Positions 17,672 to 44,682 of a DNA stretch of 55,284 bases are shown here, one piece after another. The translations under genes and the position numbers were made by a program. The notes under the pieces were generated by a model. That model was given only the letters and a program-made list of their open reading frames with translations, was not told the DNA's origin and searched no databases. This DNA comes from Rubrivivax sp. GTDB taxonomy: Bacteria > Pseudomonadota > Gammaproteobacteria > Burkholderiales > Burkholderiaceae_C. The stretch covers positions 1 through 55,284 of the forward strand of contig JADLIA010000174.1 of NCBI GenBank assembly GCA_020848515.1, given 5' to 3'. Numbering within the stretch: position 1 is the stretch's first letter; each line of letters opens with the position of its first letter.

Positions 17672-18487
17672 ATGGACCTGCGCCCCCTGGCCCTGGCGGC
17701 CCTTTGCGAAGCCGATGTGGAACGAAAACTGGCTCTGGTGGCCGCCCTGCAAGCGCCGGCAGCTACGCTTTACATAGCGCCCGAGACCGCTCTCGAGGCG
17801 CCACCCGGCCTGCCCGGTCGTCCCTTGCGGCCGCCGCTGATCGATCCGGCGCGCGTACCGCAGCGCAGCGTGCACACGCGCGAGGGCCGTGCGGCGCTGG
17901 TGCACGCCATCTGCCACATCGAATTCAACGCCATCAACCTGGCGCTGGACGCCATCTGGCGCTTTGCCGGCATGCCCGAGGCGTATTACCGCGACTGGTT
18001 GCGCGTGGCGATCGAGGAATCGCACCACTTCAGCCTGCTGCACGCCCATCTGCAGACCCACCACCAGCTGCGCTACGGCGACTTCGAGGCACACGACGGG
18101 CTGTGGGCGATGTGCGAAAAAACCCGTGACGACCTCACCGCCCGCATGGCGCTGGTGCCGCGCACGCTGGAGGCGCGCGGCCTGGACGCCACGCCGCTGA
18201 TCCAGCGCAAGCTGCGCGCCGTGGCCACGCCCGACGCGCTGGCCGCCTGCGACATCCTCGACCTGATCCTGCGCGAGGAAATCGGCCATGTGGCTATCGG
18301 CAACCACTGGTACCGCTGGCTGTGCGCACGCCAGGGCCTGGAGCCGCTGGCGCACTACCGCCGGCTGACGCGCCAGCACCGCGCCCCGCGCCTGCGCGGG
18401 CCGTTCAACACCGAGGCCCGTCGACAGGCCGGCTTCAGCGACGACGAACTGCGCGCGCTGAGCGCCGACCCGCCAACCCCCAGCTGA
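17672..18487 (+). CDS. DUF455 ferritin-like protein
   Basis: The 271-residue protein has a ferritin-like four-helix metal site of the DUF455 family: [13 protein letters not shown], then [13 protein letters not shown], then [14 protein letters not shown], supplying the E and E-x-x-H ligands for a di-metal centre. The family has no firm function; a link to MiaE-like hydroxylases is only structural. Bases 17749-17785 are a partial family A repeat, read in frame as [10 protein letters not shown]. No ribosome binding site is obvious; the ATG starts 47 bp from the divergent gca gene. Confidence 0.85.
17749..17785 (+). repeat. Family A repeat, copy 4 (partial, inside DUF455 gene)
   Basis: It reads CAAGCGCCGGCAGCTACGC followed by ACATAGC. 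It is the right half of the element, read by the host gene as [10 protein letters not shown]. Confidence 0.65.
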
Positions 18488-18520
18488 GGCGGCGCCAAAC
18501 CAGCCCTGGCGCGCCTGCCG

Positions 18521-19726
18521 TCAGACCGGATCGGTGCCGAAGCGCTTCATCAGCTCGCCCTGCACCGCCGCCGGCGACAACGCCTGCCCGGCCCGCTCGC
18601 GCGCGAACACGGCCGCCGCCGCCGGGTCGGGGTGGAACTTCAGGTACAGGCGCCGCAGCTGGTCCTCGTCCGCGTGGCCCAGTTCGACCTGCTCGTCGAT
18701 GCGGCCGGCGCGGATCAGCGCCGGGTCCAGCCGCTCCAGGTGGTTGGTGGTCATGAACAGCAACGTGCCCTCCTGCGTGGCCACACCGTCCAGCGCGTTC
18801 AGAAAGCCGCTGAACGACAGTCGCACCTGCGCGTGCGCGGCCTCGCGTTCGCGAAAGAACGCGTCCACGTCCTCGATCAGCAGCAGCGCGCGCTGCGGCA
18901 CCGCCGCCAGCAGAGTGTGGATCTTCTCGTCGGTGACGACGGGCGAGGCCAGGCTGAGCGTGCACACGTTCAGGTGCAGCTCGCTGGCCAGCGCCGTCAC
19001 CAGCGAGGTCTTGCCGGTGCCCGGCGGCCCGTACAGCAGGTAGCCGCGCCGCCACGGAATGCCCAGCTCGGCATAGCGCTCGCGGCTGGCCAGAAAGCGC
19101 CGCAGGTCGGCCAGCAGCGCCTCGGCCTGCCCGGCCTTCAGCACCACCGAGGCCAGCGGCCGGCGCCAGCCCAGTCGCGCGCGCATCCAGTCGCCACCGT
19201 GAAAGGGGTTGGGCAGGTAGACCGACAGCCGGTCGGTCTCGCGCGCCGCGCGGGCGTCGATGGCGGCTTGCAGCAGGTCCTGCAGGTAGCGCGGCGAACG
19301 CCCCAGCGTCGACAGGCTGAGGCGCTCGAACACGCTCTGGCCCACCTGCAGTTCGCGCCGCAGCCACAGCCAGCGGCCGTCCACGCGCAGGATGTGCACG
19401 CCTTCGCCCGGGCTCAGAAAGGCGCGCGGCGGCTGACCGGCGCGCAGGTCCTCGGCCAGGCTCTGGTGCTCGGTGCCGCGGCGCACGCTGCGCGCGGTGA
19501 ACTGGTTGACGCCCGCCAGGCCCGGGTGCTGATCCATGTGCTCGACCAGCGCCGGAAACAGGAACTCGTCGCGCGAATCCACCGTCAGGGTGCTGACGAA
19601 GAAGCGCCGGCCCCATTGCAGCAGCAGCCGCGGCAGGTCCTTGAGCCAGTACGCCAGCGCGCCGGCCGCAGCCAGCAGCGCCGCTTGCAGCGCGGGTTGG
19701 GACAGCAGGCCGACCGGGCTTTCCAT
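18521..19726 (-). CDS. BCS1-like membrane-anchored AAA ATPase
   Basis: The 401-residue protein has the layout of mitochondrial Bcs1: a short N-terminal membrane segment (about 12-28), a BCS1_N-like domain (about 40-190, with FLSTLTVDS-type and YLPNPF stretches), then one AAA domain with Walker A GPPGTGKT, Walker B LLIEDVDAF, sensor MTTNH and arginine-finger region PALIRAGRID. Mitochondrial Bcs1 moves folded Rieske protein; bacterial homologues are scattered and uncharacterised. No Rieske gene is nearby. It converges with the DUF455 gene. Confidence 0.8.
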   Translation of the reverse strand: MESPVGLLSQPALQAALLAAAGALAYWLKDLPRLLLQWGRRFFVSTLTVDSRDEFLFPALVEHMDQHPGLAGVNQFTARSVRRGTEHQSLAEDLRAGQPPRAFLSPGEGVHILRVDGRWLWLRRELQVGQSVFERLSLSTLGRSPRYLQDLLQAAIDARAARETDRLSVYLPNPFHGGDWMRARLGWRRPLASVVLKAGQAEALLADLRRFLASRERYAELGIPWRRGYLLYGPPGTGKTSLVTALASELHLNVCTLSLASPVVTDEKIHTLLAAVPQRALLLIEDVDAFFREREAAHAQVRLSFSGFLNALDGVATQEGTLLFMTTNHLERLDPALIRAGRIDEQVELGHADEDQLRRLYLKFHPDPAAAAVFARERAGQALSPAAVQGELMKRFGTDPV

Positions 19727-19765
19727 GGGCGCGCTCGCATCAGATGAAAGCCCGATCGTACCCCA

Positions 19766-19806
19766 GAGCTTGCCGATCGGGCGCCAGCAGCTATCGCTTT
19801 AGGAGT
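19766..19806 (+). repeat. Family A repeat, copy 5 (partial)
   Basis: It reads AGCTTGCCGATCGGGCGCCA then GCAGCTATCGCTTT, just upstream of the BCS1-like gene start, in the gap before the alpha-2-macroglobulin gene. Confidence 0.7.
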
Positions 19807-19903
19807 CCGCCCGGCCCGCCCCGACGCCGCCCGCGCCAGTCCACCACCCACGCACGGCAGGCTTTTGCTACGCTGCCATCCATTGCCCACCCCGACGTCC
19901 GCC

Positions 19904-25891: not shown

Positions 25892-25914
25892 GCCCAGGGT
25901 GAATCGAGGGCCTC

Positions 25915-25972
25915 AGAATGCTATCTTTAAGATAGCTTCTGGCGCTTGCCGGATAAGCGCTAGCGACATCTT
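25915..25972 (-). repeat. Family A repeat, copy 6, two perfect hairpins
   Basis: It contains two consecutive stems: GCTATCTT/AAGATAGC (25920-25936) and GCGCTT/AAGCGC (25942-25960, 7-nt loop). It sits 24 bp after the alpha-2-macroglobulin stop and could act as a transcript end or stabiliser, though no long T-run follows. Confidence 0.85.
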
Positions 25973-25977
25973 TTGCC

Positions 25978-26042
25978 AGGGTTCAACCCATTGCTCCGGC
26001 TGCCCGAAGTTGACAGGCGGTCAACTGCCGTTTCCGGGTTCA
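25978..26042 (-). repeat. Family B repeat, partial copy
   Basis: It reads GAAGTTGACAGGCGGTCAAC then TGCCGTTTCCGGGTTCAAT, matching the conserved end of the 5871-5985 and 27992-28110 copies. It lies just beyond the 3' end of the acyl-CoA ligase gene and is inverted relative to the copy upstream of that gene. Confidence 0.75.
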
Positions 26043-26048
26043 ATAGGT

Positions 26049-27749: not shown

Positions 27750-28125
27750 GGATCGGTCTCCTGTGTGGCCTCGCGACGAGGTCAGTCAAGGTTGAACTGG
27801 GCGCAACATACATCAAACATCGACGTCTGCGTAGCCGGCTGTCTCCCGGGCGACCTTCGCCGTTCGGCTGCCATCGTCCGTGCGCAGGCACGCGGTGCGC
27901 CGTTGCGGGTCCGCCGAACCCGAGCCAGCGTGCCCGTGCTGCAAGGCCCCGTCCCGGACGGCCTGCAAGGCGCATTCGTCGCCGGGTCCCGGCACTGAAC
28001 CTAGAAACGGCCGTTGACCGCTTGTCAACTTCGGGCAGGCCGCATCCGTGCAGGGTCGCGCGGCTGCGATGACCTTCACCTGCTGGGTGAGAGCGCTACG
28101 CACCCACCCGCGCCGGGGCGGCCGC
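27750..28125. other. 376-bp intergenic region upstream of the acyl-CoA ligase gene
   Basis: 27750-27990 probably carries the ligase promoter; I see no convincing promoter box or gene. 27992-28110 is a family B copy. The remainder runs into the end of the small exported protein gene at 28126. Confidence 0.6.
27992..28110 (+). repeat. Family B repeat, near-complete copy
   Basis: It begins TGAACCTAGAAACGGCCGTT, continues with GACCGCTTGTCAACTTCGGG, and matches the reverse complement of 5871-5985 over about 115 bp with scattered substitutions. It lacks the second inverted end seen at 5741. Confidence 0.8.
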
Positions 28126-28365: not shown

Positions 28366-28471
28366 CTCTCGTCCTCCGTCGGGCCACGCATGGCGAACGC
28401 GACCCGGCCAGTCACCATCGTGCGCCCGTCATTGAAGACCGGCCGAACTCCGGGCGCACCCCAGGCCCTGA

Positions 28472-28927: not shown

Positions 28928-29018
28928 GGCAGCGCCCGGTGCAGGCCCAGGCCCGGTCAGAAGCGGGCGACGCCCCACGCGCCGCGCCGAGGCAGTGGCC
29001 AGCTACCCATGGCGTCGG

Positions 29019-31033
<2,015 letters not shown>

Positions 31034-31110
31034 GAATGCAGGCAGGTGGCAGACCGGGCGAGTATCGTAACGCGGCGCAGCGGCCGGCCGACGCGGCGCC
31101 CGCGCTGCAG

Positions 31111-32379
31111 GTGCTGGACACGCCGGCCGCGCTCGACGCCGCGCGCTGGAACGCCCTGCTGGCGCGTCAGCCCAGCCCCACGCCCTTCATGCGCCACGAA
31201 TACCTGCTGGCGCTGCACGCCAGCGGCAGCGCCGTCACGCACACCGGGTGGACGCCGCGCTTCATGCTGCTGTGGGCCGGCAGCGAGCTGATCGCCGCCT
31301 GCCCGCTGTACCTGAAAAGCCATTCCTTCGGCGAATACGTGTTCGACTGGGCCTGGGCCAACGCCCACGCCGAACACGGCCTGCCCTACTACCCCAAGGC
31401 GGTGGTGGCCGTGCCCTTCACGCCCGTGCCCGGCACGCGCCTGCTGGCGCGCGACCAGGCGGCGCGCGCGTCGCTGATCGCCGCCGTGCGCGACTGGTGC
31501 GCCGACCAGCGGCTGTCGTCGCTGCACCTGCTGTTCGGTGATGAAGCCGATCTGGCCGCCTGCGAAGGCGCCGGCCTGATGCGGCGCAGCCAGGTGCAGT
31601 TTCACTGGAAAAATGGAGCGCCCCCACGCTCCGCGGCTGCGCCTGCTGCGCTGCCCCCCGTGGGGGCCCTCGCCGCCTTGGGGCGGCCCGGCGGCGGCTC
31701 GGACGCGCCGGTGGAGCGTCCGTTTGCCGATTTCGACGACTTCCTGGCTGCGCTGACGCAGGACAAGCGCAAGAAGATCCGCCAGGAGCGGCGCCGCGTG
31801 GCCCAGGCCGGGGTGCGTTTTCGCTGGGCTGCGGGCAACGACATCACGGCCGAGGACTGGGCCTTCTTCTACCGCTGCTACCGGCGCACCTACCTGGAGC
31901 ACGGCAACGCGCCCTACCTCACGCCGGCCTTCTTTGCCCACATGGCGCGCCACATGGCGGACGTCTGGGTGCTGTTCACGGCCGAGCGCGAAAGCCGCCC
32001 GATCGCTACCAGTTTGATAGCTGTCGGCGCACGCCCAGAAAGCGCTGGAGGCTCAAACGATGCCTATAACGGAGCGGTGGCCTACGGCCGCTACTGGGGC
32101 GCGCTGGAGCGCGTGGATGGCCTGCACTTCGAAGCCTGCTACCACCAGCCGCTCGAATGGTGCATACACCACGGCGTGGCGCGCTTCGAAGGCGGCGCCC
32201 AGGGTGAACACAAGATGGCGCGCGCCCTGCTGCCGGTGGCCACGCACAGCGCCCACTGGCTGGCGCACCCCGGCTTTGCCGACGCCGTGGCGCGCTTTCT
32301 GGCGCGCGAATCGCTTGCCGTCGATGGCTATCTGGGCCAGTTGGGCGAGCGCTCGCCGTTCCGGCGACCGGACGGCTGA
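31111..32379 (+). CDS. COG3146 GNAT/FemAB-like acyltransferase (peptidogalycan biosynthesis family)
   Basis: Members of this family have an acyl-transferase fold related to FemAB and GNAT enzymes; no member's substrate is firmly known to me. Landmarks are FMRHEYLLAL, DWAWANAHAEHGLPYYPKAV, KRKKIRQERRRV, YGRYWGALERVDGLHFEACYYQ-type and GAQGEHKMARALLP. The ATG at 31036 would be only 2 bp from the divergent nadE start, so GTG at 31111 (422 residues) is preferred. Two inserts break the family pattern: a GC-rich repeat at 31613-31706 and a family A repeat at 32002-32068. Confidence 0.82.
   Translation: MLDTPAALDAARWNALLARQPSPTPFMRHEYLLALHASGSAVTHTGWTPRFMLLWAGSELIAACPLYLKSHSFGEYVFDWAWANAHAEHGLPYYPKAVVAVPFTPVPGTRLLARDQAARASLIAAVRDWCADQRLSSLHLLFGDEADLAACEGAGLMRRSQVQFHWKNGAPPRSAAAPAALPPVGALAALGRPGGGSDAPVERPFADFDDFLAALTQDKRKKIRQERRRVAQAGVRFRWAAGNDITAEDWAFFYRCYRRTYLEHGNAPYLTPAFFAHMARHMADVWVLFTAERESRPIATSLIAVGARPESAGGSNDAYNGAVAYGRYWGALERVDGLHFEACYHQPLEWCIHHGVARFEGGAQGEHKMARALLPVATHSAHWLAHPGFADAVARFLARESLAVDGYLGQLGERSPFRRPDG
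31613..31706 (+). repeat. GC-rich in-frame repeat-like insert (family C)
   Basis: It starts GGAGCGCCCCCACGCTCCG and contains CTGCCCCCCGTGGGGGCCCT and CTTGGGGCGGCCCGGCGG, a set of nested GC hairpins. It encodes an Ala/Pro/Gly-rich loop between two conserved parts of the COG3146 protein. I recall similar sequences between genes of other Comamonadaceae, but see no second copy here. Confidence 0.6.
32002..32068 (-). repeat. Family A repeat, copy 8 (inside the COG3146 gene)
   Basis: On the minus strand it reads TTTGAGCCTCCAGCGCTTTC, then GCGCCGACAGCTATCAAAC and GGTAGC. The host gene reads the other strand as ATSLIAVGA, adding about 15-20 residues before the conserved YGRYWGA. Confidence 0.85.
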
Positions 32380-34284: not shown

Positions 34285-34371
34285 CAGCGGTCTCCCGGAA
34301 TTCGTGAGCGATGGTAACCGCAGCGCGGCGCACGGCGGCGCCCCATTCAGCGGCCGCGGCCGCAGGCAAGA

Positions 34372-35772
34372 TCAAGCCGGCTGGCGCTCGAGCGCTGGCC
34401 GCAGCGCGCCGGCCAGCGCCTCCAGCAGGCGGGCGCGCTCGGCATCGTCCAGTGCGCCGGCGACGCCGCGCTCCCACGCCGGGTGGCCGCGGGCGGCGCT
34501 CAGCGCGTCGATCAGCGCCTGCCCGTCGTCGCCCAGGGCGCCGGCAGCTTCGGCGCCCAGGCGCAGCCGCTGCTGCGCCGCATGGCCACGCTGCGCCAGC
34601 GCGCGCGCCAGCGCCAGCAGGCGCTCGGCCAGCAGCCACAGCACCGGGTCTTCCACCGTCAGCTCCTGCACGCCATCCAGACGGTTCTGCAGCTTGCGCC
34701 ACAGCGGCTGCCAGCCGCCGGAGATAGCGCCACCCAGGGTGGCGCCCAGGGTGGTGGCGGCGCCCAGCGACAGACCGGCCAGCGCCACGTCGGCCACCGC
34801 GCCCATGCCGGCACCGATCATGGCGCCCAGGCCCAGGCGCCTGCCGGCCTGCTTGAGCAGCTCGGGATTGAACAGGTCGTCTTCCCAGCGGCCGCCGGGC
34901 AGCGGCAGCTCGGTCAGCTCGGCGTCGTCGGCGCCGAAGGCGTACAGCGTCAGCAGCTCGTCGACGGCGCGGCGCGCGTGGCGGCCAGTCTGGGCCTGAA
35001 AGTCACGCACCCAGGCCTGCTGCTGCTCGGGGTCGGCAAACGCCTCGGCCGACAGGCTGCGGCGCTGGGCGGCAACGTCGATCAGCGTGCTGGCGATGAC
35101 GCGGCAGGCCGCCAGGCGGCGCTCGCGCTCGGCCTGCGCCAGCGCTTCGACGATGTCCTGCAACTGCGCGCGGCGCGCCGGCAGCAGGGTGGCCAGGTCG
35201 GCGTACAGGCGCTGCTCGGCGCCGGTGAAGGGCGCCACCACGTCGAACTCGGCACGCGCGTGCAGATTGCTTTCTTCCAGCGCGCGGTGCCAGTCGGCCA
35301 GGCGGCTGGCGCCGTCGCGCACGAAGTTGAGCACCGGCATCACGGGCTTGGCGCAGCTGGCCAGGATTTCGATTTCGGCGCGGTGCTTGGGCAGCACCGG
35401 CTCGCGCGTGTCGATCACCAGCATGGCGCAGCCGGCCTGCTCCAGCAGGGCGCGCAGCACCTTGGCCTCCTGCTCGAAGCTGGCGCGCGCCTCGGGCCCG
35501 GCCAGGAAGGCGCGCACGCGCTCGGGGCGCGAATCGCCGCTCTGGCGCGCCAGAAAATCCAGCAGCGCCACCGAATCTTCCAGCCCCGGCGTGTCGATGA
35601 AGCGCACCGCCTCGCGCCCGTCCAGCCGCAGCGCCACCGCCTCGGCATGGCGCGTGGTGCCGGGGCGATCCGACACCTGGCCAAAGTCGGCCCGGCGCGT
35701 GAGCGTGCGCAGCAGCGAGGTCTTGCCCGCGTTGGTATGGCCGACGACGGCGATGGTGAGCGCTTCAGTCAT
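34372..35772 (-). CDS. DUF3482 GTPase with glycine-zipper segment
   Basis: The 466-residue protein has an N-terminal TrmE/Era-type G domain: G1 GHTNAGKTS (11-19), G3 DTPG (60-63) and a helical middle. Residues about 314-353 form a Gly/Ala-rich hydrophobic zipper able to insert in or cross the membrane. It always pairs, as far as I know, with a DUF2868 membrane protein, here directly upstream with an 8-bp overlap. The function is unknown; membrane remodelling or stress response is speculation. Confidence 0.85.
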   Translation of the reverse strand: MTEALTIAVVGHTNAGKTSLLRTLTRRADFGQVSDRPGTTRHAEAVALRLDGREAVRFIDTPGLEDSVALLDFLARQSGDSRPERVRAFLAGPEARASFEQEAKVLRALLEQAGCAMLVIDTREPVLPKHRAEIEILASCAKPVMPVLNFVRDGASRLADWHRALEESNLHARAEFDVVAPFTGAEQRLYADLATLLPARRAQLQDIVEALAQAERERRLAACRVIASTLIDVAAQRRSLSAEAFADPEQQQAWVRDFQAQTGRHARRAVDELLTLYAFGADDAELTELPLPGGRWEDDLFNPELLKQAGRRLGLGAMIGAGMGAVADVALAGLSLGAATTLGATLGGAISGGWQPLWRKLQNRLDGVQELTVEDPVLWLLAERLLALARALAQRGHAAQQRLRLGAEAAGALGDDGQALIDALSAARGHPAWERGVAGALDDAERARLLEALAGALRPALERQPA

Positions 35773-37210
35773 GGTGTGCGGCGTCGCCGGATGCTATCCA
35801 TTCGATAGCTGTTTGCGCTTGCTCCACAAGCGTCACAGCCTCAAAACCCTCTGAATCCAGCCAGGCGCGCCAGCGCCCTGCCCCGCTCGACCCACCCGCC
35901 CCCAGCGCCAGCAGCGCCATGCGGTGACACAGCGCCTGCGCCTCGCGCACGAAGCGCGCCGTCCCGCGGTCGGGGCTGGACGGGCCATGCACCACCAGCA
36001 GCAGCGACTCGGGCCGGCTGGCCTGCAGGCGCGCCAGCGCGGCCTGCCGATCGGCGGTGCTGCCGGCGATGCGCTGGGGTGGCTCGCTGCCTGCAGACAA
36101 ACCGGTGGGCAAGCCGGGCAGCGGCCAGGGCTGCTCGGGCGGCAGCTCGAAACCCAGCACCGCCAGCGAACCCGGCGCGCCGGGCGGGCCGGCACGCACG
36201 GCGTAGGTTGGATGGGCGCTGCGCTGCTCGGCGTCGATCACCTGCGGCGGCGGCTCCAGCGCGTCGAGCCGCGCCACGATGCGGCGCACGTACGGGTCGG
36301 CCATGTCCGGCTGCGCCAGCCGCGCCTGCCCGGCGCGCCAGCGCCAGCCGCACAGCAGCGCCAGCAGCACCCGCGGCAGCAGGCCATAGGCCACCACGCA
36401 GCCGATCAGCCACCAGGCCCAATCGCTCTGGGCGATGGCGGTTGCACCCACGGCGGCATGGCCCGCCTGCGTCACCGCCGCCGCGTCGGGCACGGCAAAG
36501 CCCAGCAGCGCCGGCAGCGCGCCCGTGATCTGCACGAAGCGTTGGAAGAACGACGCGCTCAGGATGGTGCTCTCCCAGGTCAGCGCGTAGGCATGAAAGG
36601 CAAAGCCGAACACCAGCACCGCCCCCATGATGACAAAGCCCAGCGCCCACACCGCATGGCTGATCGCGCCCGTCAGCCACACCAGCAGGCCGTGGCGGCC
36701 CAACACCGCGCCCAGCGCACGCAGCAGCGTCAGCGCATGCGGCCCGCGCTCCAGCGGCAGGCGCGCCGACAGCCACAGCGCCAGCCGCCCCAGCGGCGCC
36801 CCGCCGCGCCGTCCGGCCGGCAGCAACAGGCCCAGCAGCCACAGCACCAGCGTCAGCGCGTGCAGCCCCAGCAGACTGACGAACGCCGCCACCGCGTTGA
36901 TGCTGCGCCCCTGGCCCAGCACCGCCCGCGCCAGCCCCAGATCGGCCAGCGCGAGCAACAGCGCCAGCCCCAGCAGCACCCCCGCGCCCAGCCGCCGCCA
37001 GCGCGCCCATTCAACCGGCAGCCCCAGCCGCTCGGCCAGCAACTGCGAGCGCGCCAGCACCTGCGCACCCCGTCCGCCCGGCATGCGGTGCGCCTGCGCC
37101 AGCGCCTGGGCGTCGTCCAGCGGACCGGCGTCTTCGATGCGACGCACGGTTTCGTGCAGGACTGCTGCGGCGACGGGCGTGCTGGGACTGGTGGATGTGG
37201 TGACGCGCAT
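35765..37210 (-). CDS. DUF2868 multi-pass membrane protein, partner of the DUF3482 GTPase
   Basis: The 481-residue protein has about 5-6 hydrophobic helices in the first 270 residues and a cytoplasmic C-terminal domain. The ATG at 37210 (MRVTTSTS) is the likely start. The gene ends inside the ATG of the DUF3482 GTPase gene, so the two should be translated together. The last 22 residues are encoded by a family A repeat (35789-35856), read as EQAQTAIEWIAS. Confidence 0.82.
   Translation of the reverse strand: MRVTTSTSPSTPVAAAVLHETVRRIEDAGPLDDAQALAQAHRMPGGRGAQVLARSQLLAERLGLPVEWARWRRLGAGVLLGLALLLALADLGLARAVLGQGRSINAVAAFVSLLGLHALTLVLWLLGLLLPAGRRGGAPLGRLALWLSARLPLERGPHALTLLRALGAVLGRHGLLVWLTGAISHAVWALGFVIMGAVLVFGFAFHAYALTWESTILSASFFQRFVQITGALPALLGFAVPDAAAVTQAGHAAVGATAIAQSDWAWWLIGCVVAYGLLPRVLLALLCGWRWRAGQARLAQPDMADPYVRRIVARLDALEPPPQVIDAEQRSAHPTYAVRAGPPGAPGSLAVLGFELPPEQPWPLPGLPTGLSAGSEPPQRIAGSTADRQAALARLQASRPESLLLVVHGPSSPDRGTARFVREAQALCHRMALLALGAGGSSGAGRWRAWLDSEGFEAVTLVEQAQTAIEWIASGDAAHHD
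35789..35856 (-). repeat. Family A repeat, copy 9 (C-terminus of the DUF2868 gene)
   Basis: On the minus strand it reads GGTTTTGAGGCTGTGACGCT, then GCAAGCGCAAACAGCTATCG and GGATAGCATCC. It is near full length and encodes the end of the protein. Confidence 0.88.
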
Positions 37211-37388
37211 GAGGGCGTGAAGTGCTGCAAAGCATGATAGCGAGGGACCTGCACCGCAAACGGATTGGCCGGCGCAACGACCGACGCCCATCGCCCGGTC
37301 CGATCACGCTTCAGCGCATGCGCACTAACTGATCCACCTCGATCATCGACCGCTGCCCGACTGCACCGTTGCGCGTATCCTGCGCCTG

Positions 37389-38060
37389 GTGTGCAACCGC
37401 TACGAGTCCCCCCAAGCCCGCGAAATCGAGCGCCTCTGGCACGTGGGCCGCGATCAGCCCAGCCGCTGGTGGGACGAGGTGCTGCACCCGCGTGGACAGG
37501 GGCCGTTCATTCGCCGCGCGCGCGAGGGCGGCGGGCGCGAGCTGGTGGTGGGCCAGTGGGGGCTGATTCCGTGGTTTGCGCCGCAGGCGCGCCTGGCGTA
37601 CAGCACCAACAACGCGCGCAGCGAGGAGCTGGCGAGCAAGGCCTCGTACAAGCAGCCCTGGGCGCGGGGCCAGCGCTGCATCATCCCGGCCCGCTCGTTC
37701 GACGAGCCGTGCTGGGAGACGGGGCGCAACGTGTGGTGGCGCTTTCGGCGCGCCGACGGCCAGCCCTGGGGTCTGGCAGGGCTGTGGAACACCTGGATCG
37801 ACCGCGCCAGCGGCGAGGTGCACGAGAGCTACACCATGCTGACGATCAACGCCGACCAGCACCCGCTGATGCGCCGCATGCACAAGCCCGACCCCAAGCT
37901 GGCCCCCGACCAGCAGGACAAGCGCAGCGTGATTGCCATCGAACCGGGCGACGTGCCGCAGTGGCTGGAGGGCACGCTGGACGAGGCGCGCGCCCTGCTG
38001 CGCGCGCCGGCGCCGGAGCTGTTTGACGCGGGCCCGGCCGTGCAGCTGCCCGCTTTATGA
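37389..38060 (+). CDS. SRAP-family protein (YedK/HMCES-like)
   Basis: SRAP proteins bind abasic sites in single-stranded DNA through a thiazolidine link made by the Cys right after the start. The GTG start gives CNRYE, the expected N-terminus once the initiator residue is removed. Other site residues are Asn in TNNARSE and His in QHPLMRRMH. The protein has 223 residues, typical for the family. No LexA-type box was evident in the 178-bp upstream gap. Confidence 0.93.
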   Translation: MCNRYESPQAREIERLWHVGRDQPSRWWDEVLHPRGQGPFIRRAREGGGRELVVGQWGLIPWFAPQARLAYSTNNARSEELASKASYKQPWARGQRCIIPARSFDEPCWETGRNVWWRFRRADGQPWGLAGLWNTWIDRASGEVHESYTMLTINADQHPLMRRMHKPDPKLAPDQQDKRSVIAIEPGDVPQWLEGTLDEARALLRAPAPELFDAGPAVQLPAL

Positions 38061-38122
38061 GCGCGTTTCGCCTGCTGCGCCCGTCCAGCAAACGCTAACA
38101 GCTATTGTTTTGACAAGACAAG
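38058..38122 (+). repeat. Family A repeat, copy 10
   Basis: It reads GCGCGTTTCGCCTGCTGCGC, then GTCCAGCAAACGCTAACAGC and TATTGTTTTGACAAG. Its start overlaps the stop codon of the SRAP gene. Confidence 0.8.
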
Positions 38123-38378
38123 CGGGGCTGATGGGGTGAGTTGGGATCAGAGAGGTGAAGTAGGGTCAAATCATGATTCTCATGAGAGTTTGAGCCTTCA
38201 CCCTTCACCCATCAAGCGCGATCAGCTACCAATTCGATAGTACTCAGTAGATAGTGATTGACCGCATCAGTCAGTCGCCAGCCCCGCCTCCAGGCCGGGC
38301 TCACCCTGCGGGCGACGGGCCGGGCGGCCGGCTTGGCGGGCTTGTCCGGGCGCGCGCGCGCCGCGCTACCATTGCCGC
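38061..38378. other. 318-bp intergenic region with two family A repeats
   Basis: No gene is seen. It contains family A copies 10 and 11 in the same orientation about 70 bp apart, a short inverted repeat TCATGATTCTCATGA (38171-38185) and, near the end, a GC-rich stretch before the NTF2-like gene. The low GC of 38100-38260 contrasts with its surroundings. Confidence 0.7.
38188..38247 (+). repeat. Family A repeat, copy 11
   Basis: It reads GTTTGAGCCTTCACCC, then CATCAAGCGCGATCAGCTAC and CAATTCGATAGTACTC. Confidence 0.82.
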
Positions 38379-38777
38379 ATGACGCCACACCCGATCGACG
38401 CCTGGCACGCCCTTGTCCGCTCTCACGACCCGCGCGGGCTGGACGCGCTGCTGGCCGATGACGCGGTGTTCATCTCGCCGGTGGTGCACACGCCCCAGCG
38501 GGGCAAGGCGGTCACGCGGGCCTATCTGTCGGCGGCGTTTCAGGTGTTCGTCAACCCGACGTTCCGCTACGTGCGCGAGATTCGCGGCCCGTCGGACGCG
38601 ATGCTGGAGTTCGAGACCGAGATCGACGGCATCCTGGTCAACGGCGTGGACATCATCCGCTGGGGCGCCGACGGCCGCATTGCCGAGTTCAAGGTGATGG
38701 TGCGCCCGCTGAAGGCGATCCAGTTGATCCACCAGCGCATGGCGGCCCTGCTGGCCGCCGCCCCGCGATCGGCCTGA
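38379..38777 (+). CDS. NTF2-like (SnoaL-type) small protein
   Basis: The 132-residue protein has the cone-shaped NTF2-like fold pattern: a first helix pair (DAWHALVRSHDPRGLDALLADDAVFISP), then strands with FRYVREIRG and ILVNGVDIIRWGADGRIAEFKVMVRP. It resembles SnoaL-like polyketide cyclase or limonene-epoxide hydrolase relatives, but no catalytic set is certain, so the function stays open. It stands alone and converges with qor. Confidence 0.8.
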   Translation: MTPHPIDAWHALVRSHDPRGLDALLADDAVFISPVVHTPQRGKAVTRAYLSAAFQVFVNPTFRYVREIRGPSDAMLEFETEIDGILVNGVDIIRWGADGRIAEFKVMVRPLKAIQLIHQRMAALLAAAPRSA

Positions 38778-38859
38778 CTTGGCATGCGCAGGCCCGCCGG
38801 GGCCAGGGCGCTTGTGCCCCTTGGCGCGCAAGCCGCAACCCAGGCGGCCGCGCGCCGGC

Positions 38860-39840
38860 TTACAGCGTCAGGATGGTCGATCCGGTGGTCTGGCGCGCTT
38901 CCAGGGCGCGATGGGCGGCCTGCACGTCCTGCAGGGCAAAGCGCTGGTCGATGTGGATCCTGACCTGGCCGGAGCGCACCACGGCAAACAGCTCGTCGGC
39001 CATGGCCTGGCAGCGCTCGCGCGTGGCGATGTGGGTGAACAGGGTGGCGCGCGTGACGTACAGGCATTTGGGCGCCAGCACGGCGGGGGCGAAGGGCGGC
39101 ACCGGACCGCTGGCGTTGCCAAAGCTGGCCATCAGCCCGAACGGGCGCAGGCATTTGAGCGAGCCTTCCCAGGTGTCTTTGCCGACCGAGTCGTAGACCA
39201 CCTTGACGCCCTGGCCGTCGGTGATCTGGGCAACCCGCTGGGCGAAGTCTTCTGCTCTGTAATTGATAGCTGCTTGCGCACCATTGGCAAGCGCCCGCGC
39301 GCATTTTTGTTCTGAACCGGCGGTGGCGATGAGGCGGTAGCCCAAGGCCTTGGCCCACTGGCAGGCGATCAGGCCCACGCCGCCGGCGGCGGCGTGCCAG
39401 AGGATGTGGTCGCCCGGCTGCAGACCCTCCACCGGCAGGGTGCGGCGCAGCAGGTACTGCGCGGTCAGGCCCTTGAGCATCATGGCGGCGGCGGTGTCGA
39501 AGTCGATGTCGTCGGGCAGCCGGCACACGGTCAGCGCGGGCATCACGCGCACCTGGCTGTAGCTGCCGGGCGGGTTGCCGGCGTAGGCGGCGCGGTCGCC
39601 GGGCTTGAGGTGGGTGACGCCCTCGCCCACCGCCTCGATCACGCCGGCGCCTTCCATGCCCAGGGTCAGCGGCATGGGCAGCGGGTACAGGCCGGTGCGC
39701 TGGTAGACGTCGATGAAGTTCAGGCCGATGGCGTGGTGGCGGATGCGCACCTGGCCGGGGCCGGGCTCGCCCACGGGCAGATCGACCAGTTTCATTTCCT
39801 CGGCGCCACCGGGGCGCTCGATCAGGACGGCGATGGGCAT
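38860..39840 (-). CDS. NADPH:quinone oxidoreductase, zinc-free MDR family
   Basis: The 326-residue protein belongs to the QorA/zeta-crystallin branch of medium-chain reductases and reduces quinones with NADPH. It lacks the zinc-binding cysteine cluster. Landmarks are GLNFIDVYQRTGLYPLPMPLTLG-type N-terminus, the nucleotide motif AAAGGVG, GSEQK and KVVYDSVGKDTW. The ATG at 39840 has GAGGAG upstream. Bases 39250-39317 match a family A repeat although the protein keeps its normal length here (NGAQAAINYRAEDF). Confidence 0.92.
   Translation of the reverse strand: MPIAVLIERPGGAEEMKLVDLPVGEPGPGQVRIRHHAIGLNFIDVYQRTGLYPLPMPLTLGMEGAGVIEAVGEGVTHLKPGDRAAYAGNPPGSYSQVRVMPALTVCRLPDDIDFDTAAAMMLKGLTAQYLLRRTLPVEGLQPGDHILWHAAAGGVGLIACQWAKALGYRLIATAGSEQKCARALANGAQAAINYRAEDFAQRVAQITDGQGVKVVYDSVGKDTWEGSLKCLRPFGLMASFGNASGPVPPFAPAVLAPKCLYVTRATLFTHIATRERCQAMADELFAVVRSGQVRIHIDQRFALQDVQAAHRALEARQTTGSTILTL
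39250..39317 (-). repeat. Family A repeat, copy 12 (inside the quinone oxidoreductase gene)
   Basis: On the minus strand it reads TTCAGAACAAAAATGCGCGC, then GGGCGCTTGCCAATGGTGCG, CAAGCAGCTATC and AATTAC. The GCGCTTGCC/GGTGCGCAAGC half-sites form a hairpin. It covers a normally conserved part of the Rossmann fold. Confidence 0.75.
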
Positions 39841-39875
39841 GGGCGATCTCCTCGGGGGCGGGTGCGTGAAAGCCG

Positions 39876-39921
39876 CGATGTTGCCACGCCGGCGCGGGGG
39901 ATGCCCGGCGTGGCAACATCG
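39876..39921. promoter_or_regulatory. Perfect 17-bp inverted repeat between divergent qor and eamA genes
   Basis: CGATGTTGCCACGCCGG (39876-39892) and its exact reverse complement (39905-39921) are separated by 12 bp. The right arm ends 6 bp before the eamA ATG and the left arm is 36 bp from the qor ATG. It could be an operator for a dimeric or tetrameric regulator of both genes, or an mRNA hairpin covering the eamA start. Confidence 0.65.
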
Positions 39922-39927
39922 CCCTAC

Positions 39928-40830
39928 ATGGCCCATCCACCCCTGACGCTGAAGAACGCCGCCCTGCTGACCCTGCCGCCGCTGCTGTGGGCGGGCAACG
40001 CGGTGCTGGGGCGGCTGGTGGTGGATCTGGTGCCGCCGGCGACGCTGAACTTTCTGCGCTGGCTGCTGGCCTTCTTCATCCTGCTGCCGCTGGCCGGCTG
40101 GGTGCTGCGCCCGGGCAGCGGCCTGTGGCCCCACTGGCGGCGCTTTGCCGTGCTGGGCCTGCTGGGCGTGGGGCTGTACAACACGCTGCAGTACCTGGCG
40201 CTGCACACGTCGACGCCGGTCAACGTGACGCTGGTGGCGTCGAGCATGCCGCTGTGGATGCTGGCGCTGGGGCGGCTGTTCTTCAACGCCCCGGTGAGGC
40301 GCCCGCAACTGCTGGGGGCGCTGCTGTCGATGCTGGGCGTGACGGTGGTGCTGGCGCGCGGCGATCTGGCCAACCTGGCGCGGCTGCAACTGGTGCCGGG
40401 CGATCTGTACATCCTGGCGGCCACACTGGCCTGGGCGCTGTATTCGTGGCTGCTGGCGCGGCCGGCCGAACCGGCGGCGATCCGCGCCGACTGGGCCGCC
40501 TTGCTGCTGGCACAGGTGACCTTCGGGCTGGGCTGGTCGGGCCTGCTGGCGGGCGGCGAATGGCTGCTGACCGACGCGCAGATCCGCTGGGGCTGGCCGC
40601 TGGCGGGGGCGCTGGTGTTCGTGGCCTGCGGGCCGGCGGTGCTGGCCTACCGCTGCTGGGGCCTGGGGGTGCAGCGCGCCGGGCCGGCGCTGGCGGGCTT
40701 TTTCTCGAACCTGACGCCGGTGTTCGCGGCGCTGCTGTCGACCGTGCTGCTGGGCGAAGCTCCGCGCGACTACCACGCGCTGGCCTTCGGGTTGATCGTG
40801 CTGTCGATCTGGGTGTCGTCGCGGCGCTGA
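39928..40830 (+). CDS. EamA-family (DMT) transporter
   Basis: The 300-residue protein has ten predicted helices in two EamA repeats, typical of drug/metabolite exporters. It carries LLWAGNAVLGRLV at the first helix and SNLTPVFAALLSTVLLGE in the ninth. The substrate cannot be told. The ATG at 39928 has no Shine-Dalgarno; a large inverted repeat directly precedes it. It diverges from qor with 87 bp between start codons. Confidence 0.9.
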   Translation: MAHPPLTLKNAALLTLPPLLWAGNAVLGRLVVDLVPPATLNFLRWLLAFFILLPLAGWVLRPGSGLWPHWRRFAVLGLLGVGLYNTLQYLALHTSTPVNVTLVASSMPLWMLALGRLFFNAPVRRPQLLGALLSMLGVTVVLARGDLANLARLQLVPGDLYILAATLAWALYSWLLARPAEPAAIRADWAALLLAQVTFGLGWSGLLAGGEWLLTDAQIRWGWPLAGALVFVACGPAVLAYRCWGLGVQRAGPALAGFFSNLTPVFAALLSTVLLGEAPRDYHALAFGLIVLSIWVSSRR

Positions 40831-40887
40831 GCCGGCCCGCCGCCGGTCTACACTGGCCTGCCCTACCCGATCCCTGAAAGGCGCCCC

Positions 40888-41406
40888 ATGATCCCCAACG
40901 TGAGCGAAGACGAACTGATGCTGCTGGCCACGCTGCCGCAGGCCATCGGCTCCTGCGTGGCCACGGCGGCGGGCAGCGGCGTGCTGGGCACGGGCAAGGA
41001 ACTGTTCGCCTCGGGCCAGGCGGTGATGGCGGGGCTGAAGGACTACCCCGACAACGCGCTGATCCAGGCGCTGGTGCCCGACCCGGCCGCCGCCGACAAG
41101 CACGGCGAGCTGGCGCAGGCGCGCGCCACGCGCGACTGGGCGCTGGCGCGCCTGAAGGAGCGCAACATCCGCACGCCGGCGCAGATGGCGGCGCTGACGC
41201 TGGAGGACGCGCGCGCGGTGGCACTGCTGCTGGACAGCCGCGTCGAGCCGGCGCAGGCGGCGCAGTACCGCCAGTGGGCGATGTCGGTGGCCGAGAAGGT
41301 GGCCATGGCGGCCACCGAAGGCGGCTTTCTGGGCTTTGGCGGCACCCGCCTGAGCGAGGCCGAGCAGGCGCTGATCGCGCAACTGCGCGCCGCCCTGGGC
41401 GCCTGA
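40888..41406 (+). CDS. Conserved hypothetical protein
   Basis: The 172-residue, all-helical, soluble-looking protein has no signal peptide. The start is MIPNVSEDELMLLATLPQAIG with GAAAGG upstream. Features are a small Gly/Ser stretch (AAGSGVLGTGKEL) and a helical C-terminal half with a GGFLGFGGTRLSEAEQ segment. I do not recognise a family. It follows eamA by 57 bp and may share its transcript. Its stop abuts the stop of the converging MaoC-Pta gene, giving TGATCA. Confidence 0.6.
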   Translation: MIPNVSEDELMLLATLPQAIGSCVATAAGSGVLGTGKELFASGQAVMAGLKDYPDNALIQALVPDPAAADKHGELAQARATRDWALARLKERNIRTPAQMAALTLEDARAVALLLDSRVEPAQAAQYRQWAMSVAEKVAMAATEGGFLGFGGTRLSEAEQALIAQLRAALGA

Positions 41407-42834
41407 TCAGGGCCGCACCAGCCGGTGGTGCAGGGCCAGGCGCTTGGCCAGCACCGCCGAGGCCAGGTAGGTGTTGGCGCTGTCCAGACGGTGCGTCACC
41501 ACGGTGATTGGCACGCGCGCGCCCACGATCACGCCGCAGGCGGTGGCGCCGGCCAGGTACAGCAGCTGGCGCGCCAGCATGGAGCCGGTTTCCATGTCCG
41601 GGGCCAGCAGCACGTCGGCCTGGCCCGCCACGGCCGAACGCGGGTGCTTGCCCTGCGCCGACGCCGGAGAGACGGCGCTGTCGAAGGCCAGCGGCCCGTC
41701 GATCAGGCCGCCGCCGATCTGGCCCGCGTCGACCATCTTGCACAGCGCCGCGGCGTCGATGGTGGAAGGCACGGCGGCATCGACCTGCTCGGACGCCGAC
41801 AGCACCGCCACGCGCGGCTGCTCCACCCCCATGACGCGCAGCAGGTCGATGGCGTTGCGCGCGATGTCGGCCTTGTCTGCCAGCGTGGGCGCCGCGTGCA
41901 GCATGGCGTCGGTCAGCCACAGCGGCCGGGCGTGGCCCGGCACGTCGAGCCGAAACACGTGCGACAGGCGCCGGCGCGTGTGCAACGCGGTCTGCGCGCG
42001 CACGGCGTCGAGCAGCTCGCTCAGGGCCAGGCTGCCGGCGATCAGGGCTTCGAGCCGACCATCGGCCGCGCGCTGCGCCGCCACGGCGGCCGCCGCGTCG
42101 CTGTGCGGGGCCTCGATGATCTCCACGCCCTGCAGGTTCAGCCCCGCCTGCTCGGCGGCGGCATGGATGCGCTCGGGCGGGCCGATCAGCTGCGGCACGA
42201 TGAGCCCGGCATGGGCGGCGCGCAGCACGCCCTCCAGCACCCCGGGATGGCACGGGTGGACCACGCCGCAGTGCACCGCGGGTGTGCCGGCGGCCTGCGC
42301 CACCCAGGCCTTGAGCCGCGCCTCGGGGTCGAACAGGCGCAGCTGCGGCAGTGGGGTGCGCGGCTGACGCACTTTTTCGGTCGGCGCCAGCACCTTGGCC
42401 ACGCCGGACAGCACCCGCTCGCCATGCTGGTTGCTGACCTGGCAGTCCAGCTCGACCCGCTTGCGGGCGTCGTCCTTGCTCAGCACGGTGGCGGTGACGG
42501 TCAGTGTGTCGCCCACCCGCACCGGGCGCGAAAAGCGCAGGGCCTGCTCCAGGTAGATGGTGCCCGGGCCCGGCAGCTGGGTGCCCAGCACGGCCGATAT
42601 CAGTGCCCCGCCCCACATGCCGTGGGCAATCACGCCCTGGAACAAGGTGGCGTCGGCGTACGCCGGATCGAGGTGGGCCGGGTTGGTGTCGCCCGAGACG
42701 GCGGCAAAGGCCTGGATGTCGGACTGGCTCAGCGTGCGCACCAGGCGCGCGCTCTGCCCGATGGCAAGCTCGTCGAACGTGATGTTCTCGATGAAGTCGT
42801 CGCCCGCCGCAGCGGTGCAGGTGGTGGCGGTCAT
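41407..42834 (-). CDS. Bifunctional MaoC enoyl-CoA hydratase / phosphate acyltransferase
   Basis: The 475-residue fusion joins an N-terminal MaoC-like (R)-specific hydratase (about 20-160; SGDTNPAHLDPAYADAT, FQGVIAHGMWGG) to a C-terminal phosphate acetyl/butyryltransferase (about 170-475). It could interconvert acyl-CoA and acyl phosphate and hydrate enoyl-CoAs, a set used with polyhydroxyalkanoate or fermentative acid metabolism. An acetate kinase gene often follows; here the next gene in the same direction is absent and the downstream gene converges. Confidence 0.87.
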   Translation of the reverse strand: MTATTCTAAAGDDFIENITFDELAIGQSARLVRTLSQSDIQAFAAVSGDTNPAHLDPAYADATLFQGVIAHGMWGGALISAVLGTQLPGPGTIYLEQALRFSRPVRVGDTLTVTATVLSKDDARKRVELDCQVSNQHGERVLSGVAKVLAPTEKVRQPRTPLPQLRLFDPEARLKAWVAQAAGTPAVHCGVVHPCHPGVLEGVLRAAHAGLIVPQLIGPPERIHAAAEQAGLNLQGVEIIEAPHSDAAAAVAAQRAADGRLEALIAGSLALSELLDAVRAQTALHTRRRLSHVFRLDVPGHARPLWLTDAMLHAAPTLADKADIARNAIDLLRVMGVEQPRVAVLSASEQVDAAVPSTIDAAALCKMVDAGQIGGGLIDGPLAFDSAVSPASAQGKHPRSAVAGQADVLLAPDMETGSMLARQLLYLAGATACGVIVGARVPITVVTHRLDSANTYLASAVLAKRLALHHRLVRP

Positions 42835-42897
42835 GTGGAGGTTCGGTTGCAGGCTGGCCCGGCACGGCCGCGCCGGCGTGGCGCCGGGCCGATGACG

Positions 42898-43695
42898 TCA
42901 GAAGCTGCCAGGATAGGCGCCGCCGTCGGGCAGGATGTTCTGCCCGGTCAGGTAGGCCGCCTGCTGGCTGCACAGAAAGGCGCAGATGGCGCCGAACTCG
43001 GCCGGCGTGCCGAAGCGGCGCGCCGGAATCTGGGCCTGCTGGGCGGCGCGCACCGCCTCCAGCGGCTGGCCCGACTTCTGCGCCGCGCCCTGGAAGGTGG
43101 CGGCCAGGCGGTCGGTGTCGAACTTGCCGGGCAGCAGGTTGTTGATGGTCACGCCGCGGGCGGCGATCTGCGGGTTGCGCGCCAGCCCGGCGACGAAACC
43201 CGTCAGCCCGGAGCGCGCGCCGTTGGACAGGCCCAGGATGTCGATCGGCGCCTTCACCGCGCTGGAGGTGATGTTGACGATGCGCCCGAAGCCGCGCGCC
43301 AGCATGCCGTCGAGCGTGGCACGGATCAGCTCGATGGGCGTGAGCATGTTGGCGTCCAGCGCGCGGATCCAGGCCTGGCGGTCCCAGTCGCGAAAGTCGC
43401 CGGTGGGCGGCCCGCCGGCGTTGGTGACCACGATGTCGAACTCGGCACGCCGCGCCAACACCGCCGCGCGGCCTTCGGGCGTGGTGATGTCCTGTGCCAC
43501 GAATTCGACGCTGACGCCCGCCCGGTCAGCGCCGGCAGCTCTTATTTCTGCAGCAGCCTGGGCCAGCGCCGACTCGCCCCGCGCCACCATCAGCAGGTTC
43601 ACGCCCTCGCCGGCCAGCGCCTGTGCGCAGCCCAGGCCCAACCCCTTGCTGGCGCCGCACACCAGCGCCCATTTGCCTGCAATGCCCAGATCCAT
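42898..43695 (-). CDS. Short-chain dehydrogenase with altered catalytic motif
   Basis: The 265-residue SDR has the nucleotide motif GASKGLGLG and NAGGPP. The catalytic serine position is kept (NITSSAVK), but where YxxxK should stand the sequence is LSNGARSG, so Tyr and Lys are replaced by Ser and Arg. This variant occurs in a known subgroup of SDRs often annotated as 3-oxoacyl-ACP reductases. Its reaction is unknown and may not be a dehydrogenation. It is on the same strand as the MaoC-Pta gene, 63 bp upstream. Confidence 0.85.
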   Translation of the reverse strand: MDLGIAGKWALVCGASKGLGLGCAQALAGEGVNLLMVARGESALAQAAAEIRAAGADRAGVSVEFVAQDITTPEGRAAVLARRAEFDIVVTNAGGPPTGDFRDWDRQAWIRALDANMLTPIELIRATLDGMLARGFGRIVNITSSAVKAPIDILGLSNGARSGLTGFVAGLARNPQIAARGVTINNLLPGKFDTDRLAATFQGAAQKSGQPLEAVRAAQQAQIPARRFGTPAEFGAICAFLCSQQAAYLTGQNILPDGGAYPGSF

Positions 43696-43740
43696 GCGTG
43701 CTCTCCTTGGTCAATCACGTGTGGCGGCGGCCGCGGCGCG

Positions 43741-44682
43741 TCAGCGCCCGGCGCGCCCGAACAGATAGATGCCGGCCACCACCAGCAGCGTGCCGACCGC
43801 CAGCCAGGGGGTCAGCGGCTCGTCCAGAACGACAAAACCCATGGCGATGGTGGACAGCGGCCCGATCATGCCCACCTGCGCCGCCAGGCTGGCGCCGATG
43901 CGCTCCACCCCCATCATCACCAGCAGCACCGGCAGCGCCGTGCACAGGGTCGAATTGAGCAGCGACAGCCACAGCACCGGTTCGGCCACGCGCGCCGCCT
44001 GCCACGGGTTGACCAGCAGGAAATGCGCGATGCAGCACAGGCTGGCCACCACCGAGGCCAGGCCCACCAGCCGCAGGCTGCCGATGCGGGCCACGAATTC
44101 GCCGCTGAAGAACAGGTACAGCGCATACGAAACCGCCGACAGGAACACCCAGAACGCCCCCCAGGCGGTGGCGGCCCCGGGCGTGTCGCGCACCTCCATG
44201 CCGAACACCAGCAGCGCGCCACCGTAGCTGACCGCGGTGGCCAGCAGATGCCCGGCGCCGAGCGGGCGTGCGCGCAGGGCCCAGCCGCACAGCAGCACCA
44301 GCGTGGGCGTGAGGTACAGGATCAGCCGCTCCAGGCTGGCGGTGATGTACTGCAGGCCGATGAAGTCCAGCATGCTGGCCAGGTAGTAGCCGCAAAAACC
44401 CAGCCCCAGCACGGCCCGCGTTTCGGTGCGCGACAGCGCCGGCCGCCCGCGCCCGCCCCACCAGGCCATCAGCACGAAGAACGGCAGCGCCATCAGCATG
44501 CGGTACATCAGCAGCGTGATGGCGTCCACGCCCCAGCGGTAGGCCAGCTTGACAATGATCGCCTTGCCGCTGAAGCCGATCGCCCCCAGGGCCGCCAGCA
44601 GCAGCCCGAATGCTACCGTATTTGTAGCTGTCGGCGCTTGTCCGGCGGGCGCCAGAGCCGGTTTGGATGCAGAATGCGTCAC
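43741..44682 (-). CDS. EamA-family (DMT) transporter
   Basis: The 313-residue protein has ten predicted membrane helices in two EamA repeats (GAIGFSGKAIIVKLAYRWG, and LVVAGIYLFGR at the end). The GTG start at 44682 overlaps the DUF3422 stop as GTGA. Its first 25 residues are encoded largely by a family A repeat (44608-44676), giving GQAPTATNTVA before the first helix. The substrate is unknown. Confidence 0.88.
   Translation of the reverse strand: MTHSASKPALAPAGQAPTATNTVAFGLLLAALGAIGFSGKAIIVKLAYRWGVDAITLLMYRMLMALPFFVLMAWWGGRGRPALSRTETRAVLGLGFCGYYLASMLDFIGLQYITASLERLILYLTPTLVLLCGWALRARPLGAGHLLATAVSYGGALLVFGMEVRDTPGAATAWGAFWVFLSAVSYALYLFFSGEFVARIGSLRLVGLASVVASLCCIAHFLLVNPWQAARVAEPVLWLSLLNSTLCTALPVLLVMMGVERIGASLAAQVGMIGPLSTIAMGFVVLDEPLTPWLAVGTLLVVAGIYLFGRAGR
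44608..44676 (-). repeat. Family A repeat, copy 13 (N-terminus of the second eamA gene)
   Basis: On the minus strand it reads AAACCGGCTCTGGCGCCC, then GACAAGCGCCGACAGCTAC and GTAGCATTC. The gene reads it in the shared frame. Confidence 0.85.

Follow-up and report, generated by a model that had tools for sequence, protein, structure and literature searches.

Why do the copies of a short DNA repeat that lie within genes appear to be read in one reading frame, and do they represent peptides inserted into proteins? The question is raised by a 55,284-nt stretch of Rubrivivax sp. DNA (the window), for which a first-pass annotation proposed that intragenic copies are always read in the same frame in a given orientation, that chance avoidance of stop codons is an insufficient reason, and that the arrangement recalls the palindromic elements that add peptides to Rickettsia proteins. 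The repeat is a 67-bp, non-palindromic motif extending from about −16 to +51 around ATAGCTGCTnGCGC, and it is spread hundreds of times over the chromosomes of some Comamonadaceae. If the favoured reading given below is right, it is an abundant motif of a large bacterial family that has apparently escaped description; within the open-licence literature, no paper describing it was found, and none printing its core letters (as 14-mers).

A profile search over 1.08 Mb returned 325 matches at E ≤ 0.1, and none in the reversed-sequence control. Synonymous shuffles, which keep both the protein and its codon usage, gave 0, 0, 1, 0 and 1 matches at E ≤ 1e-4 compared with 68 in the real sequences; the copies in open reading frames (ORFs) are real at the level of DNA. 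A larger set of 594 copies was drawn from the genome to which the window belongs (an assembly that is 77% complete), four relatives, and named contigs. Information is spread over −16 to +51 and amounts to about 65 bits in copies selected by the profile. The overrepresentation is clade-specific, with hundreds of copies per genome in some genera and 0–7 per genome in other families, among the genomes listed. Regular spacing, which some expect of uptake motifs, was sought on genome G230 and is absent, the copies there being clustered (spacing CV 1.30, compared with 0.98 for random placement). A BLAST search with the 67-base consensus, a low-sensitivity method that finds 0–33 matches per Mb where the profile finds 45–231, matched 4 of 72,556 plasmid records and 0 of 50,697 phage records; because it misses most copies detected by the profile, the signal of depletion in plasmids and phages is weak. 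A Diaphorobacter plasmid carries three copies in 150 kb, and a Polaromonas plasmid stretch none in 50 kb.

Copies in the window are collected in Table 1. All seven peptides that had been quoted are present, within the two frames named: the five antisense copies (DUF455, nadE, DUF2868, qor, and eamA) all use frame a2, the antisense QAPAAI frame, and those in norD and the COG3146 gene share s0, the sense IAAGA frame. A strict test for internal position, with both flanks coding in one frame and no stop across, accepts two of the seven, qor and COG3146; the DUF455 and eamA copies have one coding flank each, and the DUF2868 copy is near the gene end. The norD copy falls beyond positions 17749–44676, the range given in the first-pass annotation.

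Table 1. Copies of the element in the 55,284-nt window; E values are from a profile search of the window only.
Feature	Position	Strand	E value	Peptide, frame and remarks
DUF455 gene (17672–18487 +), element copy	17721–17776	−	0.0013	frame a2; peptide 17750–17779 +
nadE (29375–31033 −), half element	30254–30292	+	0.0032	profile positions 1–37; AAAAIELKA, 30254–30280 −, frame a2
COG3146 gene (31036–32379 +), element copy	32006–32065	+	4e-12	ATSLIAVGA, 32005–32031 +, frame s0; scored intragenic
DUF2868 gene (35765–37291 −), near 3′ end, element copy	35794–35855	+	6.5e-9	QAQTAIEWIA, 35792–35821 −, frame a2
qor (open frame 38860–41406 −), element copy	39255–39317	+	5e-11	GAQAAINYRA, 39253–39282 −, frame a2
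eamA (−), 5′ side, element copy	44614–44675	+	9e-11	QAPTATNTVA, 44611–44640 −, frame a2; single flank coding
norD (512–2479 −), diverged element	1306–1346	−	0.47 and 5.4	two sub-threshold pieces; DAIDSEAAGA, 1313–1342 −, frame s0
Element at gene boundary	7753–7813	−	1.6e-15	coding flanks on same strand, in differing frames
Element	25921–25977	+	4e-12	no flank scored coding
Element at gene boundary	53449–53509	−	5e-13	
Element	38055–38112	−	1e-6	single coding flank
Partial element	19768–19805	−	3e-6	single coding flank
Partial element	5517–5553	+	2e-5	no flank scored coding
Weak element-like stretch	43502–43540	−	6e-4 (0.03 in larger set)	in 270-codon frame, s0

Under the strict test, 84 of the 594 copies in the larger set are intragenic and open. 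The 44 antisense copies divide into 33 in a2, 10 in a0, and one in a1, and the 40 sense copies into 31 in s0, five in s1, and four in s2, such that the two leading frames hold 64 of the 84 (76%). Among 448 non-intragenic copies (E < 1e-3), the shares free of stops are 65%, 26%, and 59% for a2, a0, and a1, and 64%, 3%, and 50% for s0, s1, and s2. Avoidance of stops alone is rejected as the cause, as the first-pass annotation had argued, since a1 and s2 are open nearly as often as a2 and s0 and are used once and four times. Chi-square tests against the stop-free expectation, which take copies as independent although some are orthologous pairs, gave p values of 2e-6 (antisense) and 4e-7 (sense), and of 3e-4 and 4e-3, respectively, when restricted to 50 copies at E ≤ 1e-6. 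A looser definition, using stop-to-stop coding ORFs in the window's own genome (92 copies), keeps the same leading frames with weaker exclusion of the others (a2 30, a1 12, a0 2; s0 37, s2 9, s1 2). The bias is therefore strong and goes beyond stop avoidance, yet the frames are not ‘always’ the same, as had been claimed.

Peptides from the favoured frames are unremarkable and for the most part rich in Ala and Gly, and the rare frames add more Cys, Trp, Tyr, or Arg. Mean log residue frequency is −2.80 for both s0 and a2, −2.98 for a1, and −3.10 for s2; the highest value is that of s1 (−2.70), a frame that stops exclude. A model of proteome compatibility, based on the frames of near-matches in shuffled ORFs, fails to predict the frames used: a2 accounts for 77 and s0 for 156 of 1318 near-matches, a spectrum unlike that of the real copies, and an in-place origin alone thus does not predict the frames.

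Comparison of orthologous sites gives an indication of age. Many of 467 loosely defined orthologue pairs were false, and only 75 were used, in which both flanks have at least 60% identity, the length change is at most 150, and the subject was not picked by the element. The site is occupied in 49 of these comparisons, empty in 22, and weak in four. Between the window's own genome and G230, it is occupied in 18 of 19 (reciprocals counted), and the element is common to different genera at 56–66% flank identity (L087/L265 and L034/L263). Because sites are mostly occupied in orthologues, the copies are old rather than fresh insertions. In the DUF455 gene, 12 of 15 same-genus sequences have a profile match (E < 1) and all 15 have ATA at one position, a codon that makes up 1.4% of Ile codons. 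GC3 is 0.51 within this element and 0.88 elsewhere; mean synonymous codon identity is 0.69 in the element compared with 0.72 in the rest of the gene, that is, with no excess.

A whole element corresponds to about 22 codons, and a clean insertion should lengthen the protein accordingly. Net length was compared over a 132-codon fragment between the window's own genome (for TruB, a named contig) and other families of the order, in figures that do not place the gap. Changes were 0–1 codons for RecN in all 15 full-span matches, −3 to 6 for AroA (nine matches), −2 to 8 for TilS (15), 3 to 10 for LeuS (15), and −1 to 4 for TruB (14). An amidase (L059) differs by one codon from L275, which is without the element (50% flank identity), and paralogues of qor align across the site without a gap. 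Other proteins have gained about 11–22 codons: 11–14 in the element-holding part of COG3146, 17 and 20 in one gene (L232 and L073 compared with L253), and about 22 in MoeA relative to a 43%-identical paralogue. As a general rule, the comparisons do not support the clean insertion of an entire element in frame that the first-pass annotation had expected orthologues to reveal; the likeness to Rickettsia is thus partly supported, by the presence of intragenic copies with a frame bias and by the longer gains in some genes. That intragenic copies use mainly two of the six frames, and often occur with no lengthening by a full motif, points to a DNA signal that is maintained and not to plain inserted junk.

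Different explanations may be considered for these observations. It is barely credible that the intragenic copies are native coding sequence, rich in Ala, that happens to look like the motif: the shuffled and reversed controls refute this origin for strong copies, which are common to orthologues. At E ≤ 0.1, there are 114 real matches and 3–7 per synonymous shuffle, so a few weak intragenic calls are chance, possibly including the stretch at 43502–43540. A structure acting in RNA (a terminator, a processing site, or a hairpin in the 3′ UTR), to which the intragenic copies would be incidental, is distinctly unlikely. It would suit the placement of 46 copies between convergent genes and four between divergent ones, and the weak covariation that intergenic copies have towards the inside of stem 2 (z 3.4, 5.8, and 2.1 for pairs 14–24, 15–23, and 16–22; pair 9–29 has z 4.1). 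However, codirectional copies have no orientation preference (77 sense, 70 antisense), stem 1 has no covariation, with pairs at expectation, stem 2 has none in 70 ungapped intragenic copies, and no Rfam family was found in the window at gathering thresholds. Conserved palindromic pairing was not found.

An old mobile insertion resembling REP sequences or Rickettsia palindromic elements (RPEs), selected in frame and later trimmed or accommodated by loss of adjoining native codons, is a real possibility, though one that we regard as doubtful. It would account for the near-full insertions of 17–22 codons in some genes, the intermediate gains of 3–14 codons in LeuS, TilS, and COG3146, and the empty intergenic sites that are shorter than L174 by exactly 67 bp in one case and by 57 in another (L259 and L270); REPs and RPEs within ORFs are on record in the relevant passages of PMC3733652 and PMC2229807. 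Against it are the near-constant lengths of RecN and the amidase, and the distribution of Y1_Tnp (RAYT-type), although the latter says little about a RAYT link. Y1_Tnp occurs in 221 of 299 family genomes at E ≤ 0.001, many of them without the element, is absent at that threshold from the 77% complete assembly, and has no evident relation to element count among the 58 genomes listed. Random insertion with no peptide filter would, furthermore, leave the avoidance of the open frames a1 and s2 unexplained.

The reading that we favour, with a probability of about 0.4, is that nucleotide-level selection or drive preserves a linear, family-specific DNA motif as a putative recognition signal, with tolerance of the encoded peptide filtering the frames. 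What is observed directly is that real copies are numerous, that orthologous sites are conserved, that letters of the element persist in spite of codon bias, and that two frames are favoured. A protein would recognize the motif, and selection or drive would keep copies and could build or improve them in place; by analogy with the uptake sequences of Neisseria and Haemophilus, the drive would most likely consist of preferential DNA uptake and subsequent homologous recombination. Within genes, a copy would survive only where the native protein tolerates its peptide, and such a filter on a DNA-level signal would give rise to the frame bias. Counting for a recognition signal are the near-absence of net gain in length in RecN, AroA, TruB, the amidase, and qor, the preference for convergent over divergent placement, the lack of covariation in stem 1, the commoner residues of s0 and a2 relative to a1 and s2, and the transformation records of two Acidovorax species given below. 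The 65-bit length compared with uptake sequences of 9–12 bp, the clustering of copies, the gains of 11–22 codons, the lack of excess codon identity in DUF455, the frame spectrum of the shuffles, and the common residues of s1 count against it. If the reading is right, the motif shapes codon and amino-acid choice within core genes, and would make it possible to test concretely to what extent proteins can be rewritten by a signal in DNA.

A bolder form, rather unlikely, is that Comamonadaceae would have evolved, independently, a third system of DNA uptake sequences, in which an unusually long candidate motif with genus-level dialects rewrites housekeeping genes in place at synonymous and tolerable codons. 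Passages of PMC4212676 on transformation report natural transformation of Acidovorax temperans and A. facilis, though DNA from other species of the genus did not transform them, and contigs of both carry the element (L158 and L136); an uptake sequence would explain this reported specificity. For A. delafieldii, the same passages record no transformation, and a strain of that name carries the motif (L126), which counts against the favoured reading.

Among known systems, the Beta-proteobacterial repeat element (BRE) similarly occurs in betaproteobacteria including Comamonadaceae, with some copies in coding sequences, but it is described in PMC3110155 as about 90 bp long, often in tandem, with at most 29 copies per genome; the motif and this Bordetella repeat may still be identical in sequence. 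RPEs are likewise repeated, found in frame in many protein genes, and also intergenic; they differ in being palindromic and 105–146 bp long, according to their description in PMC2229807, whereas the motif here is 67 bp with weak or no conservation of pairing, and several of its host genes have no full-length gain. REPs of the GTAG/CGTC families, associated with RAYT, are alike in their hundreds of copies, mostly at the 3′ sides of genes with some in ORFs (in the passages of PMC3733652 on their distribution), but no GTAG or CGTC tag was visible by eye at the hairpin foot in the consensus of 142 seeds, and there is no clear Y1_Tnp link; the text of that paper mentions no Acidovorax, Comamonas, Polaromonas, or Delftia. 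The uptake sequences of Neisseriaceae (DUS) and Pasteurellaceae (USS) differ in length, being about 9–12 bp compared with 67 bp here, where no such short core was found. They resemble the motif in being genome-wide, with clade-specific variants and many copies at permissive sites, and, in the parts of PMC3630211 and PMC2346458 that treat coding regions, in that reading frame constrains the intragenic copies.

Copies of the 67-bp element, oriented as GCTAT-N6-ATAGCTGCTnGCGC-N11-GCGC..., were collected from ~1.08 Mb of the genome to which the window belongs (assembly of 2.48 Mb, 77% complete). A profile built from 142 ungapped seeds produced 325 matches at E<=0.1 in this ~1.08 Mb and 0 in the reversed-sequence control of the same search, and a pattern count across the whole genome gave 315 strict matches. 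With four relatives and 117 named contigs, which are biased towards the element because they were fetched by the motif itself, the collection comprised 594 copies after removal of double-strand duplicates. Information in the profile-selected copies spans -16 to +51 (~65 bits); no covariation was detected in stem 1, and that in stem 2 is weak.

Inside genes the element is conserved at the level of DNA. Counted before duplicate removal, real ORFs gave 68 matches at E<=1e-4 and 114 at E<=0.1, compared with 0, 0, 1, 0, 1 and 3-7, respectively, in synonymous shuffles that kept proteins and codon usage unchanged. The DUF455 gene provides an example, using 15 same-genus sequences (including that of the window) found by protein search rather than by motif, which share ancestry and are therefore not 15 independent events. 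A profile match at E<1 lies within the gene in 12 of the 15; all 15 use ATA at one element codon, and at other element codons every Ala codon is GCA (11) or GCT (13). Genome-wide, these codons make up 1.4% (ATA), 4.5% (GCA), and 2.9% (GCT) of their families, and GC3 is 0.51 in the element versus 0.88 in the rest of the gene. Mean synonymous identity in the DUF455 element is not raised (0.69 versus 0.72), since outside the element codon choice converges on a small GC-rich set.

Copies were classed by codon usage in 150 bases on each side, and 84 of the 594 were intragenic, with both flanks coding in one frame without a stop across. The first-pass annotation proposed a single frame per orientation, for which chance stop avoidance was not a full explanation. 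One frame does dominate each orientation, but not exclusively: antisense copies use a2 (QAPAAI type) in 33 cases, a0 in 10, and a1 in 1, and sense copies use s0 (IAAGA type) in 31, s1 in 5, and s2 in 4. The second part of the proposal is borne out. Among 448 non-intragenic copies, a2, a0, and a1 are stop-free in 65, 26, and 59%, and s0, s1, and s2 in 64, 3, and 50%, so that a1 and s2 are disfavoured in spite of being open (2e-8 for a2 versus a1 and 5e-5 for s0 versus s2, binomial p). Exclusion is weaker under a looser ORF definition (a1 12 and s2 9 of 92 copies). The favoured frames encode commoner residues than a1 and s2, with fewer Cys, Trp, Tyr, His, and Met, and a filter on the encoded peptide is thus the simplest explanation of the bias. 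Mere resemblance of host proteins to the motif does not account for the preference, as chance near-matches in the shuffles have a different frame spectrum. Separately, an Ile-to-Glu change (ATAGCT to GAAGCT) occurs in 5/31 s0 copies versus 9/510 non-intragenic ones, and likewise in norD.

Across 75 filtered syntenic comparisons the element was present at the orthologous site in 49, weak in 4, and absent in 22; between the window's genome and G230, 18/19 sites were occupied, counting reciprocal comparisons. Different genera have intragenic copies in common at 56-66% flank identity. Clean in-frame insertion, also suggested earlier, would apply to some genes only. Five 132-codon fragments, each searched in 40 relatives and measured by net length only, differed from other families by 0-1 (RecN), -3 to 6 (AroA), -2 to 8 (TilS), 3 to 10 (LeuS), and -1 to 4 codons (TruB). 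DNA comparison gave 1 codon for an amidase pair, and qor of the window aligns gap-free with paralogues at 33-34% identity. Larger differences were seen in the element-bearing part of COG3146 (which exceeds that of other families by 11-14 codons), a methyltransferase-like gene (17-20, DNA comparison), and MoeA (~22 versus a paralogue). Full insertion is the exception among these genes, a small sample hand-picked for conserved proteins. The COG3146 gene also holds a second, GC-rich repeat, which matches many unrelated ORFs in same-genus genomes. G313 lacks it, and its matches to 1-197 and 226-446 join there with nothing left between them (28 codons); those of G230 and same-genus G015 overlap at this point as though the stretch had been duplicated.

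At least one pattern match occurs in 185/299 genomes of the family, with tens to hundreds in a minority only; named carriers include Ottowia, Acidovorax, Simplicispira, Comamonas, Diaphorobacter, Giesbergeria, and Polaromonas. A survey of 195 genomes from other families gave 0-7 per genome among those listed, similar to the control pattern. Copies shun divergent promoters (46 convergent versus 4 divergent) and have no clear preference in orientation relative to genes. Separately, same-genus G015 has 14 Y1_Tnp matches, several of them identical. The Pfam family DUF1010 (PF06231) seems to be based in part on the element; its positions 3-26 match a copy in the window's genome (G000:C138) below the cut-off, and on plasmid pPH1JI a copy overlaps the DUF1010 ORF of a class 1 integron cassette.

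Positions of the second repeat and of further loci
Feature	Sequence	Positions
Second COG3146 repeat (residues ~195-226)	window	31618-31713
Copy within annotated lpdA CDS; second match inside adjoining aceF CDS	Diaphorobacter plasmid, L308	486-2345
DUF1010-related locus	L098	2450-2521
DUF1010-related locus	L307	1352-1597

An old REP- or RPE-like element, inserted and then trimmed, would account for the length of the motif and for genes with near-full gains. Retention of the element as a recognition signal in DNA would account for its DNA-level conservation and for the lack of full insertions. According to a published account (PMC4212676), Acidovorax undergoes natural transformation with a species barrier, which makes uptake a testable version of the recognition signal, with the element as a candidate DNA uptake motif.
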